A program made the translations under genes and the position numbers. Positions 41,112 through 48,502 of a stretch of DNA of 64,000 nucleotides are shown here, in pieces. The notes beneath the pieces are model-generated. The model was not told the origin of the DNA. It did not search any database and saw only the letters and a list, made by a program, of their open reading frames with translations. Origin of the DNA: Bradyrhizobium sp. WSM471 (GTDB taxonomy: Bacteria; Pseudomonadota; Alphaproteobacteria; Rhizobiales; Xanthobacteraceae); contig NZ_CM001442.1 in the NCBI RefSeq assembly GCF_000244915.1, forward strand, positions 5,580,001 through 5,644,000, read 5' to 3'. The first letter of the stretch is position 1; every line of letters begins with the position of its first letter.

Positions 41112-42533
41112 TCAGTACCGGTAATGGTCCGACTTGTAAGGACCTTCCTGTTTGACGCCGATATAGTCGGCCTGGTCCTTGCGCAGCTCGGTGAGCTTGA
41201 CGCCGATCTTGGCGAGGTGCAGGCGCGCGACCTTTTCGTCGAGCGACTTCGGCAGCACGTAGACTTCCTTCTTGTACTTGCCGTCCTTGTTGTTGGCGAA
41301 AAGCTCGATCTGCGCCAGCGTCTGGTTGGTGAAGGAGGCCGACATCACGAAGGACGGATGGCCCATCGCGTTGCCGAGGTTCACGAGGCGACCTTCCGAC
41401 AGCATGATGATGCGATGCTTGTCGGGAAATTCGATCTCGTCGACCTGCGGCTTGATGTTGGTCCATTTCAGGTTGCGCAGACCCGCGATCTGGATCTCGT
41501 TGTCGAAGTGACCGATGTTGCAGACGATGGCGCGATCCTTCATCGCGCGCATGTGCTCGATCGTGATGATGTCCTTGTTGCCGGTCGCGGTGACGAAAAT
41601 GTCAGCGCGGGGCGCGGCGTCTTCCATGGTCACGACTTCATAGCCTTCCATCGCAGCCTGCAGTGCGCAGATCGGATCGACTTCGGAGACCATGACGCGG
41701 CAGCCGGCCTGGCGCAGCGAGGCGGCCGAACCCTTGCCGACGTCGCCGAAGCCCGCGACCATCGCGACCTTGCCGGACATCATCACGTCGGTGCCGCGGC
41801 GGATGCCGTCGACCAGCGATTCACGGCAGCCATAGAGGTTGTCGAACTTCGACTTGGTGACGCTGTCGTTGACGTTGATGGCGGGCCATAGCAGCGTGCC
41901 GGCTTTCTGCATGTCATAGAGACGATGCACGCCCGTGGTGGTCTCTTCGGAAACGCCCTTGATGCTCTTGGCGATCTCGGCGAAGTAGCCCTTCGGCTTC
42001 TCCTTGAGCTGCTTCTTCAGAAGCGCGAAGAAGACTTCCTCTTCTTCCGAACCCGGCTTGTCCAGGAACTTGGTGTCGCCGTTCTCGGCGCGCAGGCCGA
42101 GATGGACGTACATGGTGGCGTCGCCGCCGTCATCGAGGATCATGTTCGGGTGACCGCCGCCGTGCCAGTCGAACAGCTTGGCGGTGTAGTCCCAGTACTC
42201 GGTCAGGCTCTCACCCTTGACGGCGAACACCGGAATGCCGGCGGCTGCGATCGCCGCCGCAGCGTGGTCCTGCGTCGAATAGATGTTGCAGGAGACCCAG
42301 CGGATGTCGGCGCCGAGCGCGGCCAGCGTCTCGATCAGCACGCCGGTCTGGATCGTCATGTGCAGGGAGCCGGCGATACGCGCGCCCTTCAGGGGCTGCT
42401 TCGGGCCATATTCTTCGCGGGTGGCCATCAGGCCGGGCATCTCGGTCTCGGCGAGCGAGAGCTCCTTGCGGCCGAAATCGGCGAGCGAAATGTCCTTGAC
42501 GATGTAATCGGTGAAGCCGGGCTTCGCGTTCAT
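41112..42533 (-). CDS. ahcY: S-adenosylhomocysteinase
   Basis: A 473-residue NAD-dependent hydrolase that splits S-adenosylhomocysteine to adenosine and homocysteine. It shows [16 protein letters not shown] near the start, NAD-binding [10 protein letters not shown], the closing DHYRY C-terminus and the 40-residue insert typical of alphaproteobacterial enzymes ([16 protein letters not shown]). It lies downstream of metK on the same strand, with a repeat element in the 200-bp gap between them. It removes the product of every SAM-dependent methyl transfer. Confidence 0.97.
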
Positions 42534-42606
42534 GTCTGTTTCCTAGTGGTGGGTCTGGCGTGTCAGTAACGAAGCAAACGAAGCGCCTTGCGGCACAGTC
42601 TTCTTT

Positions 42607-42726
42607 CTCTCCCCCGTTCTTACGGGGAGAGGGCTGGGGTGAGGGGCTCCATCCGCGCACTGAGCCAGTGGAGAGTCCCCCTCACCCGCCGCTTCGCGGC
42701 GACCTCTCCCCGCAAGCGGGGCGAGG
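42607..42726. repeat. Inverted-repeat element, C-rich family (copy 3, degraded)
   Basis: A palindromic end at 42607-42633 is answered by a diverged one at 42703-42726, with GGGGTGAGGGG facing CCCCCTCACCC inside. It lies in the metK-ahcY gap and could fold in the joint message. Confidence 0.7.
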
Positions 42727-42735
42727 TAAGAGCGT

Positions 42736-43932
<1,197 letters not shown>

Positions 43933-43993
43933 CAGTAACCCCTTGTTCCGCCGCTAGCTGGCGGGCGTTTGCGATATTTAGCTTTGAATGATG

Positions 43994-45349
43994 TCAATCA
44001 CGCCGGCGCGAGATGACGTAGGATTCGTCGAGAAACCAGAGCCCATTGTACTTTCGCAGCACGTCCCTGGCGGCATCCAGAGTGCGGCCGTTTTGAGTCA
44101 TTTCCGTCAACCGGTCGTCCTCAATCTGAGCGACGTACACCGCCGCATTCCACGCTGCAAAGGCCGTCGAGGTGCCGATAGAGCCTGTCACCTCGTTGGG
44201 CAGAGCTTCCATATCATACCTGAAGATCGAGCGGTTATCTGCGTAAGCATTAAAATTTAAGTCGCGGCCCACCGAGCCGAGCTCGTACTTCACCGCGCGC
44301 AATAGCTCATGACGGCTCACAGAGAAAGGGTTTTCTCCGGGCCAGATCGCCTGGATCATTTCCATGCCCGGATCCTGGCCGTGGGAGTGAATTCCGATCA
44401 GGCGGCCGCCTGCCCGCAAGGCCCGGGCCAGGGGCGCAATGATCCGTTTTGCCCGAAAATTGACCGAGGACAGCGCGCGGTATGGCTGGGATGCAATAAC
44501 GAGGTCGAAATTGGCCTCGGCCTGGCCCGGCCGTGGAATGGTCGAATCAAGCAGAAACCGCTGGTCTTCACGGTAGAGCACCAGCACGACAGGCCGCTCA
44601 TAAAGAGGCATCCCCGTGCGCGGGCTGACCGCCGCGCGCCAGTTCTGCTCCAAAAACGGCTTCAATTCCGCGATTTGCGTCTCGAACTCGCCCGAGGAAG
44701 CACCCCGCAGGGGAACCTCATGCCAGACGGTCGCGGCCGCCGCCGCGGGTGATGCCGGCGTGAGCCAGGGCGCCTCCGCGTAAAGCATGTTGGTAAAAAC
44801 AAACACCGAGGCCGGATGCTCGAAAATGCGATCCGGCACCTTGTCCAGCGTCAGGCGGAGGTCCTCGAGACTGAGCTCCTTGCCGGCGACGTAGAACGGC
44901 ATGTGCGGAAAGCGCTGATGCATCGAGCGCAGCACGCGCGCCAGCACCGTGCCGTCGCCAACGCCGGCATCGAACACGCGCAGCGCCGGCGGCCGGGGAT
45001 GGATGCTGGCAAGCTCCAGGGCCACGCGCTCGGCGACCACCCGCTTCTCACTGCAAGTGTGGACGAACAGCAGGTATTTCTGCCGATTCTCGAAAAAGCG
45101 GAAATTGCCGCGCGGATCGCGCTTTTCCGGCGGCACCTGAAGCCCCCGCGGTGGCGGCACGCCGCCGGCCATCGATGCGGCCATGTAGGCCTGGATCCGG
45201 TCCAGCGTGTCGATCGTGATGCGCTTGCCCTCGCGCAGCCGGTGCACAAGCTTCCCATCGTTCACCGCGCGCCGGCCGAACGTCGACTCCGCCATGTCCG
45301 CCTTACGGCAGAACTCGGTGATTTGGCTCAGGATTTCGTCATTCTTCAT
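43994..45349 (-). CDS. SAM-dependent methyltransferase with N-terminal HTH-like segment
   Basis: A 451-residue protein. Residues 1-55 (EFCRKADMAESTFGRRAVN and REGKRITIDTLDRIQAYMA) resemble the helix-turn-helix of phage-repressor-like proteins. From about 85 a Rossmann methyltransferase domain follows, with the SAM loop DAGVGDGTVLARVL at 127-140 and VIASQPYRAL later. It lies directly upstream of metK and ahcY, suggesting a link between SAM level and gene control. The ATG at 45349 has no ribosome-binding site close to it; the only AGGAGG is about 37 bases upstream, inside an inverted repeat. The substrate is unknown. Confidence 0.78.
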   Translation of the reverse strand: MKNDEILSQITEFCRKADMAESTFGRRAVNDGKLVHRLREGKRITIDTLDRIQAYMAASMAGGVPPPRGLQVPPEKRDPRGNFRFFENRQKYLLFVHTCSEKRVVAERVALELASIHPRPPALRVFDAGVGDGTVLARVLRSMHQRFPHMPFYVAGKELSLEDLRLTLDKVPDRIFEHPASVFVFTNMLYAEAPWLTPASPAAAAATVWHEVPLRGASSGEFETQIAELKPFLEQNWRAAVSPRTGMPLYERPVVLVLYREDQRFLLDSTIPRPGQAEANFDLVIASQPYRALSSVNFRAKRIIAPLARALRAGGRLIGIHSHGQDPGMEMIQAIWPGENPFSVSRHELLRAVKYELGSVGRDLNFNAYADNRSIFRYDMEALPNEVTGSIGTSTAFAAWNAAVYVAQIEDDRLTEMTQNGRTLDAARDVLRKYNGLWFLDESYVISRRRD

Positions 45350-45362
45350 GGAGTGGGACGCG

Positions 45363-45407
45363 GTGGGCAGAAGGATTGGGTAGCGCCTCCTAGCAAATTC
45401 TGCCCAC
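45363..45407. promoter_or_regulatory. Perfect inverted repeat before the HTH-methyltransferase gene
   Basis: GTGGGCAGAA (45363-45372) and TTCTGCCCAC (45398-45407) are exact reverse complements 25 bases apart, 14 bases upstream of the start codon at 45349. The region between holds the AGGAGG that would be the only nearby ribosome-binding site on the minus strand. It may be an operator for the HTH protein or an RNA hairpin in its leader. Confidence 0.55.
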
Positions 45408-45523
45408 TGAGGGAATAGGGATAGCGACACCCCCCGTTTGCCGTGTGCACAATAGCGAAGCCGTGAACCACCTTCCCCCGCCGGGCAACAAACAGACGCC
45501 TCTCCTCTACGGGACCACCGCCA

Positions 45524-47242
45524 ATGCGTCGCCTGCTCGTCGCGCTCTGCCTGCTCGCCGCAACCCTGTGGTCGGCGCCCGCTTTTGCGCAGGCGCGCAA
45601 CCAGCTTGGGCCGCTCTGCACCACCGACACCACGCCGGCAGACCAGATGATCGACGCCTGCAGCAAGATCATCGCGCTGAAGGTGTTCAAAGGCGAGCAG
45701 CTCGCGACGGTCTACTTCTGGCGCGCGGTGGGCTGGAATAAGAAGGGCGATTACGCCAAGGTCATCACTGACGCCACGGAAGCGGTTCGGCTCCATCCGA
45801 GCCAGGCAGTCTACAACCTGCGCGGCTCGGCGTATTACGACAAAGGCGACTACGAGATCGCGGTCGCTGATTTCGACGATGCGCTGAAGCTTGGCCCGCC
45901 TGATGGCACCATCTTCCACAACCGCGGCAATGCCTGGCGCGGCAAAGGCGATTACGCCAAGGCGATCGCCGACTACGACATGTCGATCAAGGCCAATCCA
46001 AGATCGGCGTTCTCGTTCCAGAACCGCGGTATCGCGAAGGAGGCACTTGGCGATCTCGACGGCGCGCTGGCCGACATCAACCAGGCGATCCGGCTCGACC
46101 CGACACTGCCGCAGCCGCTGATCAACCGGACCGCGATCTGGCGTGTCAGAGGCGATTACGATCGCGCGATTGCCGACGGCAGCGATGCGATCCGGCTCGC
46201 GAAGGAAAACCCGCCCGTCAATATCATGACGCCGCCGAACAGCGTGCTGATCTCGGGCTACACCCATCGCGCGCTGGCCTATGAGGCGAAAGGCGATTAC
46301 GCGCACGCGAGCGACGACTACAAGGCCACGCTGGCGATCGCGGCGTCCGATGCCGGCAGCAAGGCCAATCAAGCCACCGCAAAGGTGCGGCTGTCGCTGA
46401 TCACCGACGCAAGCGCACCGATCCCGCGCGATGCGCCGTCACCGACGACCGAGCCGGCAAACGCACCGGCTCCCCAGCAGACCGGTGCCGCGCCGCCCGC
46501 CTCGCCTGCCCCGGCCGCGCGCGGCACGCGCATGGCGCTGATCATCGGCAACGGCGCCTATGCGCATGTCAAGGCGCTGCCCAATCCGCCCAATGACGCG
46601 CGCGCCGTTGCCAGGGCCTTGCGCGATATCGGCTTCACTGTATCAGAAGGCGTCGATCTCGACCGCGCGGCGATGCAGAAGATGACGCGTGACTTCTTGC
46701 GGGAAGCGGCGCGGGCGCAGGTCGTAGTGGTCTACTATGCGGGCCACGGCGTGCAGGTCGACGGCCGCAACTATCTCATTCCCGTCGACGTCGAACTCAA
46801 GCCGGGCGCGAGGATGACGGACGCGATGATCGACATGGACACGATCATGGCCGGCCTCGACGACCAGGTCCGCACCAACATTTTGATCTTCGATGCCTGT
46901 CGCAATAATCCGATGGCACAGCAGGTCGCATCAGCCGGCACCAACCGCGCCATCGAAGCTGCCTCGGGCCTCGCAGCGCCAACGAGCCTGGGCGCCGGCG
47001 CGACGCTCGGCGCCGGCACGCTGATCGCTTTCGCCACTGCGCCGGGACAGGTCGCGCTCGACGGCGAAGGTGCCAACTCGCCGTTCTCCGCCGCGCTCTC
47101 CCGCCATCTCGGCACGCCCGGCCTGGAAGTGCAGCAGATGCTGACACGTGTGCGGGCGGAGGTGGTGTCAACCACGAAAAACAAGCAGGTGCCGTGGTCG
47201 AACTCGTCGCTGCTGGGAGAGGTTTATCTGGCGGAGAAGTGA
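45524..47242 (+). CDS. TPR-repeat caspase-like (peptidase C14) protein
   Basis: A 572-residue exported protein: signal peptide (1-23, ending AFAQA), then about six TPR units (roughly 60-290, recurring KGDYAKAIADYD), a Pro/Ala-rich linker (about 300-332) and a C-terminal caspase fold beginning RMALIIGNGAYAHV. The catalytic dyad is His408 (YYAGHG) and Cys459 (DACRNNP), both intact. TPR units suggest binding of a protein partner in the periplasm. It is divergent from the HTH-methyltransferase gene, with 174 bp between them, and is related in its C-terminal half to the gene at the left window edge. Confidence 0.88.
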   Translation: MRRLLVALCLLAATLWSAPAFAQARNQLGPLCTTDTTPADQMIDACSKIIALKVFKGEQLATVYFWRAVGWNKKGDYAKVITDATEAVRLHPSQAVYNLRGSAYYDKGDYEIAVADFDDALKLGPPDGTIFHNRGNAWRGKGDYAKAIADYDMSIKANPRSAFSFQNRGIAKEALGDLDGALADINQAIRLDPTLPQPLINRTAIWRVRGDYDRAIADGSDAIRLAKENPPVNIMTPPNSVLISGYTHRALAYEAKGDYAHASDDYKATLAIAASDAGSKANQATAKVRLSLITDASAPIPRDAPSPTTEPANAPAPQQTGAAPPASPAPAARGTRMALIIGNGAYAHVKALPNPPNDARAVARALRDIGFTVSEGVDLDRAAMQKMTRDFLREAARAQVVVVYYAGHGVQVDGRNYLIPVDVELKPGARMTDAMIDMDTIMAGLDDQVRTNILIFDACRNNPMAQQVASAGTNRAIEAASGLAAPTSLGAGATLGAGTLIAFATAPGQVALDGEGANSPFSAALSRHLGTPGLEVQQMLTRVRAEVVSTTKNKQVPWSNSSLLGEVYLAEK

Positions 47243-47383: not shown

Positions 47384-48502
47384 TTATTGGCCCCACACTT
47401 CCTTCGCGATCTCCACGGCGAGGCCGAGCTTGGCCCACTGCTCCTCTTCGGAGAGGACGTTGCCCTCCTCCGTCGAGGCGAAACCGCACTGCGGGGAGAG
47501 TGCGAGCTGCTCCAGCGGGGCGAACTTGGCGGCTTCCTCGAGACGGCGCTTGATATCATCCCTCTTCTCGAGCTCACCGAATTTCGAGGTGATGACGCCG
47601 ACCACGACGACCTTGTTACCCTTGGGCAGGAAGCGCAGCGGCTCGAAGCCACCGGCACGGTCGCTGTCGTATTCGAGGAAATAGCCGTCGTAATTGGTGC
47701 CGGCGAGCATGGTCTCGGCAACCGGCTCGTAGCCGCCTGACGAAATCCAGGTCGAACGGAAATTTCCGCGGCAGACATGCGTCGTCACCACCATGTCGGC
47801 GGGCTTCTCGGCCAGCGCGTAGTTGATGACGCGCGCATAGATCTGCTGGAGACCGTCGGGATTGTCGCCCCGCTCGCGCGCCTTCTGCAATTCGTCCGGC
47901 GAGCAGAGATAGGCCCACACGGTGTCGTCGAACTGGAGATAGCGGCAGCCGGCGTCGTAGAACGCCTTCACCGCCTTGCGGTAGGTCTTGCCGAGGTCTT
48001 CGTAGAAGGCATCGAGATCCGGATAGACGTCCTTGGAGATCGCCTTGCGGCCGCCGCGGAAGTGCAGCACCGCCGGCGACGGGATCGTCATCTTGGCGGT
48101 GACATGAGCCTGGTCGGCGACCTTCTTCAGGAAGCGGAAGTGATCCAGCATCGGATGGTCATCTGGGAAGTCGAGCTTTCCGATCACCCGCACCGCATCA
48201 TGCCGCGTCTCGACGCCCGCGAACTGGATGCCGGTGTCGGGGTGGAACATTTCGCAGCCGGTGAGCTTGGCCAGGAAGTCGAAATGCCACCAGGAGCGGC
48301 GGAATTCGCCGTCGGTCGCGAGCTTCAGGCCGAGCGAGGCCTGTTTATGCACGACCTTCTCGATCTCCATGTCCTCGATCTTGCGCAGATCGTCGGCTGA
48401 GATCTCGCCCTTCTCCAGCCTGGCGCGGGCTTCCTTGATCTTGGCGGGGCGCAGGAGACTGCCGACCTCGTCGGCGCGGAAGGGGGCTTTGGTTCGCTGC
48501 AT
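47384..48502 (-). CDS. MetE C-terminal-domain methionine synthase-like protein
   Basis: A 372-residue cobalamin-independent methyltransferase made of the MetE catalytic barrel only, as in YxjG/YxjH-type and archaeal MetE proteins. Zinc-ligand candidates are in THVCRGNF and LSPQCGFAS, and DEVGSLLRP opens the domain. It probably transfers a methyl group to homocysteine, but the methyl donor may not be methyl-tetrahydrofolate. GGGAG stands eight bases before the ATG. It starts 20 bp after livF and is therefore likely the last gene of the Liv transporter operon. Confidence 0.85.
   Translation of the reverse strand: MQRTKAPFRADEVGSLLRPAKIKEARARLEKGEISADDLRKIEDMEIEKVVHKQASLGLKLATDGEFRRSWWHFDFLAKLTGCEMFHPDTGIQFAGVETRHDAVRVIGKLDFPDDHPMLDHFRFLKKVADQAHVTAKMTIPSPAVLHFRGGRKAISKDVYPDLDAFYEDLGKTYRKAVKAFYDAGCRYLQFDDTVWAYLCSPDELQKARERGDNPDGLQQIYARVINYALAEKPADMVVTTHVCRGNFRSTWISSGGYEPVAETMLAGTNYDGYFLEYDSDRAGGFEPLRFLPKGNKVVVVGVITSKFGELEKRDDIKRRLEEAAKFAPLEQLALSPQCGFASTEEGNVLSEEEQWAKLGLAVEIAKEVWGQ

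Follow-up and report, generated by a model that had tools for sequence, protein, structure and literature searches.

The gene directly upstream of metK in Bradyrhizobium sp. WSM471 is predicted to encode a phage Cro-like helix-turn-helix (HTH) domain joined to a methyltransferase domain, and comparison with its relatives indicates that the protein probably regulates its own gene, most likely as a repressor, and through read-through also controls metK. The gene was analysed in a window of 64,000 nucleotides of contig NZ_CM001442.1. An earlier note on this DNA had proposed a protein that controls its own gene and metK; the comparison supports the autoregulation and the conserved coupling to metK, as it does the HTH fold, the geometry of the promoter-operator and the dependence of the sites on the HTH.

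The fusion gene and its neighbours

The fusion gene is an open frame of 451 aa on the minus strand (43994..45349, ATG at 45349); the span 43994..45407 of the earlier note is this gene plus the inverted repeat. The best 80 of 220 relatives in named genomes are 89-100% identical to it, 79 of them covering residues 1-451 and one covering residues 1-447. A further 28 loci of the same family, three of them from the same genus, are 80-88% identical. These two sets are called close and further relatives below.

As the earlier note had it, metK (SAM synthetase, 42736..43932) and ahcY (SAH hydrolase, 41112..42533) lie downstream in the same orientation. The fusion gene and metK are separated by 61 bp (43933..43993, minus strand) that contain no terminator-like site, and metK is presumed to be co-transcribed. 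metK is the next gene in all 108 same-family loci (80/80 close and 28/28 further relatives), at a distance of 57-142 bp. In 78 of the 80 close loci ahcY is found no more than 800 bp from metK; in the other two the contig ends there. The part of the metK-ahcY gap at 42594-42735 contains GC-rich inverted repeats (ctctccccg.../...cggggagag) resembling a dispersed repeat element, and a weak match to sX13, below threshold, falls inside it.

Two other genes lie close to the operon. A TPR-caspase gene (Peptidase_C14, 45524-47242, plus strand) is divergent from the fusion gene and shares a 174-bp intergenic region with it; it is divergent and within 2.5 kb in 73 of the 80 Bradyrhizobium loci, and the same operator may also touch this gene. 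A short MetE-like protein (Meth_synt_2, 372 aa) is encoded at 47384-48502 on the minus strand; its relative in locus L189 forms one operon with a fusion gene and an MTHFR gene.

The HTH domain

Residues 1-60 (45170..45349, minus strand) are predicted with confidence to form a Cro/Xre-type HTH belonging to the phage Cro-like family phrog_7669, as judged from a structure model, its fold matches and a profile comparison. The modelled helices (residues 3-16, 21-29, 34-39 and 46-60; pLDDT about 81-91) form a compact helical bundle of the lambda-repressor type, which matches Cro/Xre-type domains, and residues 4-58 match the profile of phrog_7669, listed as a family of unknown function, at E 5.7e-6. 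Residues 30-33, immediately ahead of the recognition helix, are NDGK. The fusion protein has no match to HTH_5 (ArsR-type) or to any other Pfam model. An HTH at about residues 5-55 had been called from the sequence, with a fold prediction of residues 1-60 suggested as a check, and this prediction bears the call out.

The methyltransferase domain

The residues after the HTH match class I methyltransferases (residues 83-451; 43997..45103, minus strand), as profile similarity and motif I (DAGxGD, residues 127-132) indicate. The fusion protein contains METHYLTRANSFERASE, and its remaining ~370 residues are without a Pfam or NCBIfam match; with the protein itself as query, neither database gave a match at E up to 10. 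The profile comparison, run against 20 Methyltransf_25 domains taken from this genome, gave 94.8%, and 0.0-0.1% for the control families MetK, AhcY and TPR-caspase, which agrees with the earlier proposal that a SAM-dependent methyltransferase domain is joined to the HTH. A few of 37 relatives gave weak hits (best E 0.015), most often to methyltransferase models: Methyltransf_28 in 3, Methyltransf_12 in 2 and MTase_DVU1556 in 6. D127, A128, G129, G131 and D132 are among the many residues that do not vary across 37 sequences, some of them with an HTH and some lacking it, whose identity goes down to 28%.

The structure prediction of this part had a pLDDT mostly below 50. The top Foldseek rows by E-value were SRP GTPases, with a probability of 0.28 or less, and were taken as noise from the unmodelled part. 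A PDB sequence search with the fusion protein returned nothing, and a PDB search with the profile returned a single row at chance level (3npi, E 0.7).

A role as a nucleic-acid (DNA or RNA) methyltransferase whose HTH finds the sites and represses its own gene is very unlikely. No DNA-methyltransferase family appeared among the Pfam and NCBIfam matches and the neighbours are methyl-cycle rather than restriction genes, although S287 and Q288 are invariant and P289 nearly so, at the position of (D/N/S)PPY in amino-methyltransferases, and restriction-control proteins are among the fold matches of the HTH.

A conserved promoter-operator

Upstream of the fusion gene lies an exact inverted repeat with 10-bp arms, GTGGGCAGAA/TTCTGCCCAC, at 45363-45372 and 45398-45407, with 25 nt between them. 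The window has a single such arm pair, and 100 shuffles gave none, so that the perfect repeat reported earlier is confirmed; its near arm lies 13 bases before the ATG, not 14. Read on the minus strand, half-site 1 (GTGGGCAGAA, 45398..45407) falls within the presumed -35/-10 spacer and half-site 2 (TTCTGCCCAC, 45363..45372) just beyond the presumed transcription start. A further CCCA-type half-site, TCCCAC (45353..45358, minus strand), stands 10 nt on from half-site 2 and, judged by eye, is similar in most aligned rows, and a weaker CCCAA (45376-45380) lies near half-site 2.

The promoter elements are conserved along with the half-sites. A conserved TGnTA, the presumed extended -10 (TGCTAGGAG, 45387..45395, minus strand), occurs exactly 11 nt after TGGGMA in 80/80 close and 24/28 further relatives, and TGCCCA follows TGGGMA at 36-39 nt in 79/80 and 26/28, respectively. 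Among 125 full-length loci both half-site motifs were found in 111, and 36-39 nt was the shortest spacing in 110 of these, counts which are not independent as near-copies are included (L012 and L082, for instance, share their upstream sequence). The distance from TGGGMA to the ATG is variable: among the same-family loci listed, it is 52 bases at the shortest and 86 at the longest. In 27 aligned loci a T-rich conserved peak lies nine bases before TGGG; it marks the presumed -35 hexamer, TTCCCT (45410..45415, minus strand), 17 nt from the -10 hexamer. A sigma-70 consensus scan found no promoter site, the presumed -35 included, and the promoter thus rests on conservation.

The inverted repeat therefore appears, from these alignments, to be part of a rigid promoter-operator. 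The palindrome had been called operator-like, and a conserved TGGGMA-TGnTA-TGCCCA module argues for this reading rather than for a chance repeat. Conservation of the palindrome, which had been named as a check, holds for TGGGMA...TGCCCA but not for the perfect 10-bp form, which is present in only 13/80 close and 0/28 further relatives; a 7-bp form is present in 74/80 and 14/28.

The earlier note had also seen no ribosome-binding site near the start and had placed the only AGGAGG inside the repeat. The first point extends to the relatives, as a Shine-Dalgarno-like run beside the ATG is present in 0/80 close and 0/28 further loci. The second needs correction: the AGGAGG (45386-45391, minus strand) sits in the gap between the arms and within neither of them. 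Because it is conserved in few relatives (25/80 close, 2/28 further) and overlaps the -10-like element, it is no ribosome site hidden in the operator. These counts also bear on the idea that the repeat works at the RNA level, as a leader hairpin or riboswitch, instead of as DNA sites, which we consider highly improbable. The arms are indeed complementary and in this genome flank the Shine-Dalgarno-like AGGAGG; however, few relatives have the latter, the first arm is upstream of the presumed transcription start, and elsewhere the half-sites are found in both orientations and at other spacings. Rfam gave no match at gathering score in the window, with only chance-level matches at 42400-45700.

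Sites accompany the HTH

Whole-genome searches found a match in 83 of 119 genomes of the family, 34 of 297 of the order and 40 of 385 of the class. The relatives recovered were of three kinds: the fusion in other families, the N-domain on its own, and the methyltransferase lacking the HTH. Upstream sites were counted as TGGG-N6-CCCA, CCCA-N9-TGGG or the long-spaced form, and across all groups and spacing classes the shuffle means reached at most 0.22. Where the HTH was absent, the 250 bases were measured from the point at which the match begins and therefore contain some coding sequence. Sites preceded the fused gene at 10 of 12 loci in other families (L096 and L137 were without) and at 26 of 28 in the same family (L133 and L134 were without, the long-spaced site included); for stand-alone HTH genes the count was 6 of 9 (L159, L160 and L161 were without), and for HTH-less genes 0 of 21. 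Because the TGGG/CCCA sites are present before fused and stand-alone HTH genes and before none of the 21 HTH-less relatives, they appear to follow the HTH and not the methyltransferase.

The long-spaced layout of the Bradyrhizobium clade (36-39 nt) differs from the 14-bp TGGG-N6-CCCA unit found elsewhere. An N6 or N9 site was present at 23 of 28 loci with an NDGK-type HTH versus 0 of 5 others (Fisher p 0.001; one duplicate was dropped, and with five of the 28 coming from one genus the p-value is generous). The NDGK-type loci without such a site were L255, L096, L206, L208 and L211. In the tree, the HTH-less gene L181 nests within the fused clade with good support and, counted as L100 in the survey of sites, has none, which suggests a joint loss of HTH and sites in the lineage of L181. 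Two Bradyrhizobium-type genomes, G194 and G171, have an additional copy of the fusion gene with 59% identity (L186 and L187); both copies have a TGGG-N6-CCCA site, and both are immediately followed by an MTHFR-like gene.

The same counts argue against another regulator as the binder of the TGGG sites, an extremely improbable explanation given that the sites are missing before all 21 HTH-less relatives and are tied to the NDGK-type HTH. MraZ binds TGGGN boxes 10 bp apart, and CCCAC-N5-CCCAC is present at the fusion promoter. However, mraZ was not found in the genome of WSM471, while 7 of 14 control genomes were positive, and MraZ was rejected as a candidate. The complete arrangement was found once in the genome: TGGGMA-N29-34-TKCCCA has one place (the reversed control pattern two), a looser half-site spacing three, and half-site plus -10 with up to 2 mismatches five (control five). 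No further methionine gene in the genome appears to carry the site pattern.

Phage relatives of the HTH

Four of the stand-alone N-domain genes (L202-L205) are located opposite a gene with Peptidase_S24 (3/4) and HTH_3 (3/4) domains, and their upstream regions contain one to three TGGG-N6-CCCA palindromes each. The arrangement resembles Cro/CI immunity regions, in which Cro stands opposite CI: the HTH family is the same (phrog_7669), S24/HTH_3 repressors are encoded opposite, and the palindromes lie between. In contrast, the Bradyrhizobium HTH is fused to a methyltransferase and is encoded in the core genome, before metK. Phages of Agrobacterium, Synechococcus and Acetobacter also carry relatives of the HTH family (6 and 3 records); a plasmid search gave no match. 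The phage members L212 and L213 are not of the NDGK type, and neither TGGG-N6-CCCA nor CCCA-N9-TGGG was found in the 250 bases upstream of them. In Agrobacterium phage Atu_ph08 (L212, 2420-2500) another palindrome, TCCTCTATAGAGGATA, precedes the HTH-family member, and the letters of the operator may therefore change with the recognition helix.

Methyl-cycle neighbours and the role of the methyltransferase domain

In a wider set of fused loci, too, the fusion gene often has methyl-cycle neighbours. On the same strand and within 3 kb, metK, ahcY, an MTHFR-like or a metE-like gene was found in 15 of 19 wider fused loci (all except L177, L179, L190 and L206). Of 17 HTH-less loci, a weak metE-like gene in the same orientation was found at one (L185), and an adjoining MTHFR-like gene on the opposite strand at five (L192-L196); metK was the next gene in 0 of 21 HTH-less loci. 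These numbers come from a tblastn recount, as earlier gene calls by a simple GC3 rule had missed genes. The metE-like call is clear; of the MTHFR calls, one cluster is at the Pfam cut-off (26.5 and 24.1 bits versus 24) and the other is strong (117 bits). On these counts the link to the methyl cycle holds whether or not the HTH is present, and it is the operon-like arrangement that goes with the HTH. The divergent MTHFR-like family at the Pfam cut-off (L172, 7911-8810; L210, 7338-8270), which shares the orientation of the fusion gene in 11 of the 19 wider fused loci, is possibly a separate, unstudied enzyme.

The explanation to take most seriously besides the regulator of metK is a self-limiting enzyme, in which the HTH autorepresses the level of the methyltransferase, no ligand is sensed, and metK is a mere neighbour or is transcribed from a promoter of its own. 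The invariant residues are retained in relatives of 49-58% identity that lack the HTH, and the methyltransferase domain may thus simply be an enzyme; in addition, of 11 fused genes in other families only 3 are directly followed by metK, and the other 8 are not. We nevertheless consider a self-limiting enzyme rather unlikely, in view of metK being next to the fusion gene throughout the same family and of the methyl-cycle neighbours in most of the wider fused loci.

In the preferred reading, control of both the fusion gene and metK, the N-terminal HTH would bind the TGGGM/KCCCA half-sites in the -35/-10 spacer and just past the transcription start. As the half-sites lie at these two positions, the bound protein should block RNA polymerase, keeping it off the fusion promoter and repressing the fusion gene; the repression would extend to metK by read-through across the 61-bp gap. 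We infer that the fusion protein itself does the binding, that the sign of the control is repression and that metK is co-transcribed. Counting against this reading are the long-spaced layout of the clade, the five NDGK-type loci with neither an N6 nor an N9 site, L133 and L134 as loci without a long-spaced one, the small share of fused genes in other families that have metK next, the single place of the arrangement in the genome and the negative sigma-70 scan. The methyltransferase domain would tie this control to the methyl cycle, either through occupancy by SAM or SAH or through its enzymatic work; that its content sets the strength of DNA binding is a guess that fits the neighbours.

Comparison with known regulators

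SahR has a C-terminal methyltransferase-like domain. The fusion protein would resemble SahR and SamR in such a domain and in the autoregulated control of genes of the metK/ahcY type. Both are repressors of SAM-cycle genes in Proteobacteria, as described in PMC4239095 and PMC8877191; SahR belongs to the ArsR family and has a 20-bp palindromic operator before sahR, ahcY, metH, metF and metK (PMC4239095). Unlike the ArsR-type HTH of SahR, the HTH of the fusion protein is Cro/Xre-like, and unlike the 20-bp palindrome, compared here by description, its site consists of two half-sites 36-39 nt apart. SahR was also sought elsewhere in the genome (150 of 172 candidates scored): 13 ArsR-type places were found, none with [DE]xGxGxG in a frame of more than 100 aa. 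From the HTH type and this search, the fusion protein appears not to be SahR.

M.EcoRII and M.SsoII are DNA methyltransferases whose N-terminal HTH represses their own genes. They share with the fusion protein an HTH and a methyltransferase in one chain and, as proposed here, autoregulation; the methyltransferase family differs, as do the neighbours, which belong to the methyl cycle and not to restriction. Riboswitches for SAM or SAH also control methionine or SAM genes, and the window is without an Rfam match. SahR, SamR and riboswitches are treated in the methionine-regulon survey PMC4239095, which gives SAM_alpha before metXW in the Bradyrhizobiaceae; its passages considered here name no metK regulator for this group. 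A literature search found no report of the fusion protein or its operator, which we present as a new, presumed autoregulator of the SAM cycle that combines a phage-type HTH with a methyltransferase domain. Tentatively, we also consider it possible that a Cro-like phage repressor domain entered the core genome of alphaproteobacteria and was joined to a methyltransferase of an unnamed family, and that the fusion reads the SAM/SAH state through the latter and sets SAM synthesis (metK) in Bradyrhizobium and its family and MTHFR-like methyl-folate genes elsewhere. It would then be an independently evolved counterpart of SahR in which the phage half-site TGGG was retained, a reading we hold with the same reserve.

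metK makes the main methyl donor of the cell. If the proposed control is true, the conserved promoter sites would let the fusion protein steer the supply of methyl groups, and a phage Cro-like domain would be at work in central metabolism. It would also give a likely function for phrog_7669, operator binding, and a simple link between protein and DNA site, the NDGK-type HTH with TGGG half-sites. With a regulator of one gene and a short operator, the question of how metK is regulated becomes directly testable.
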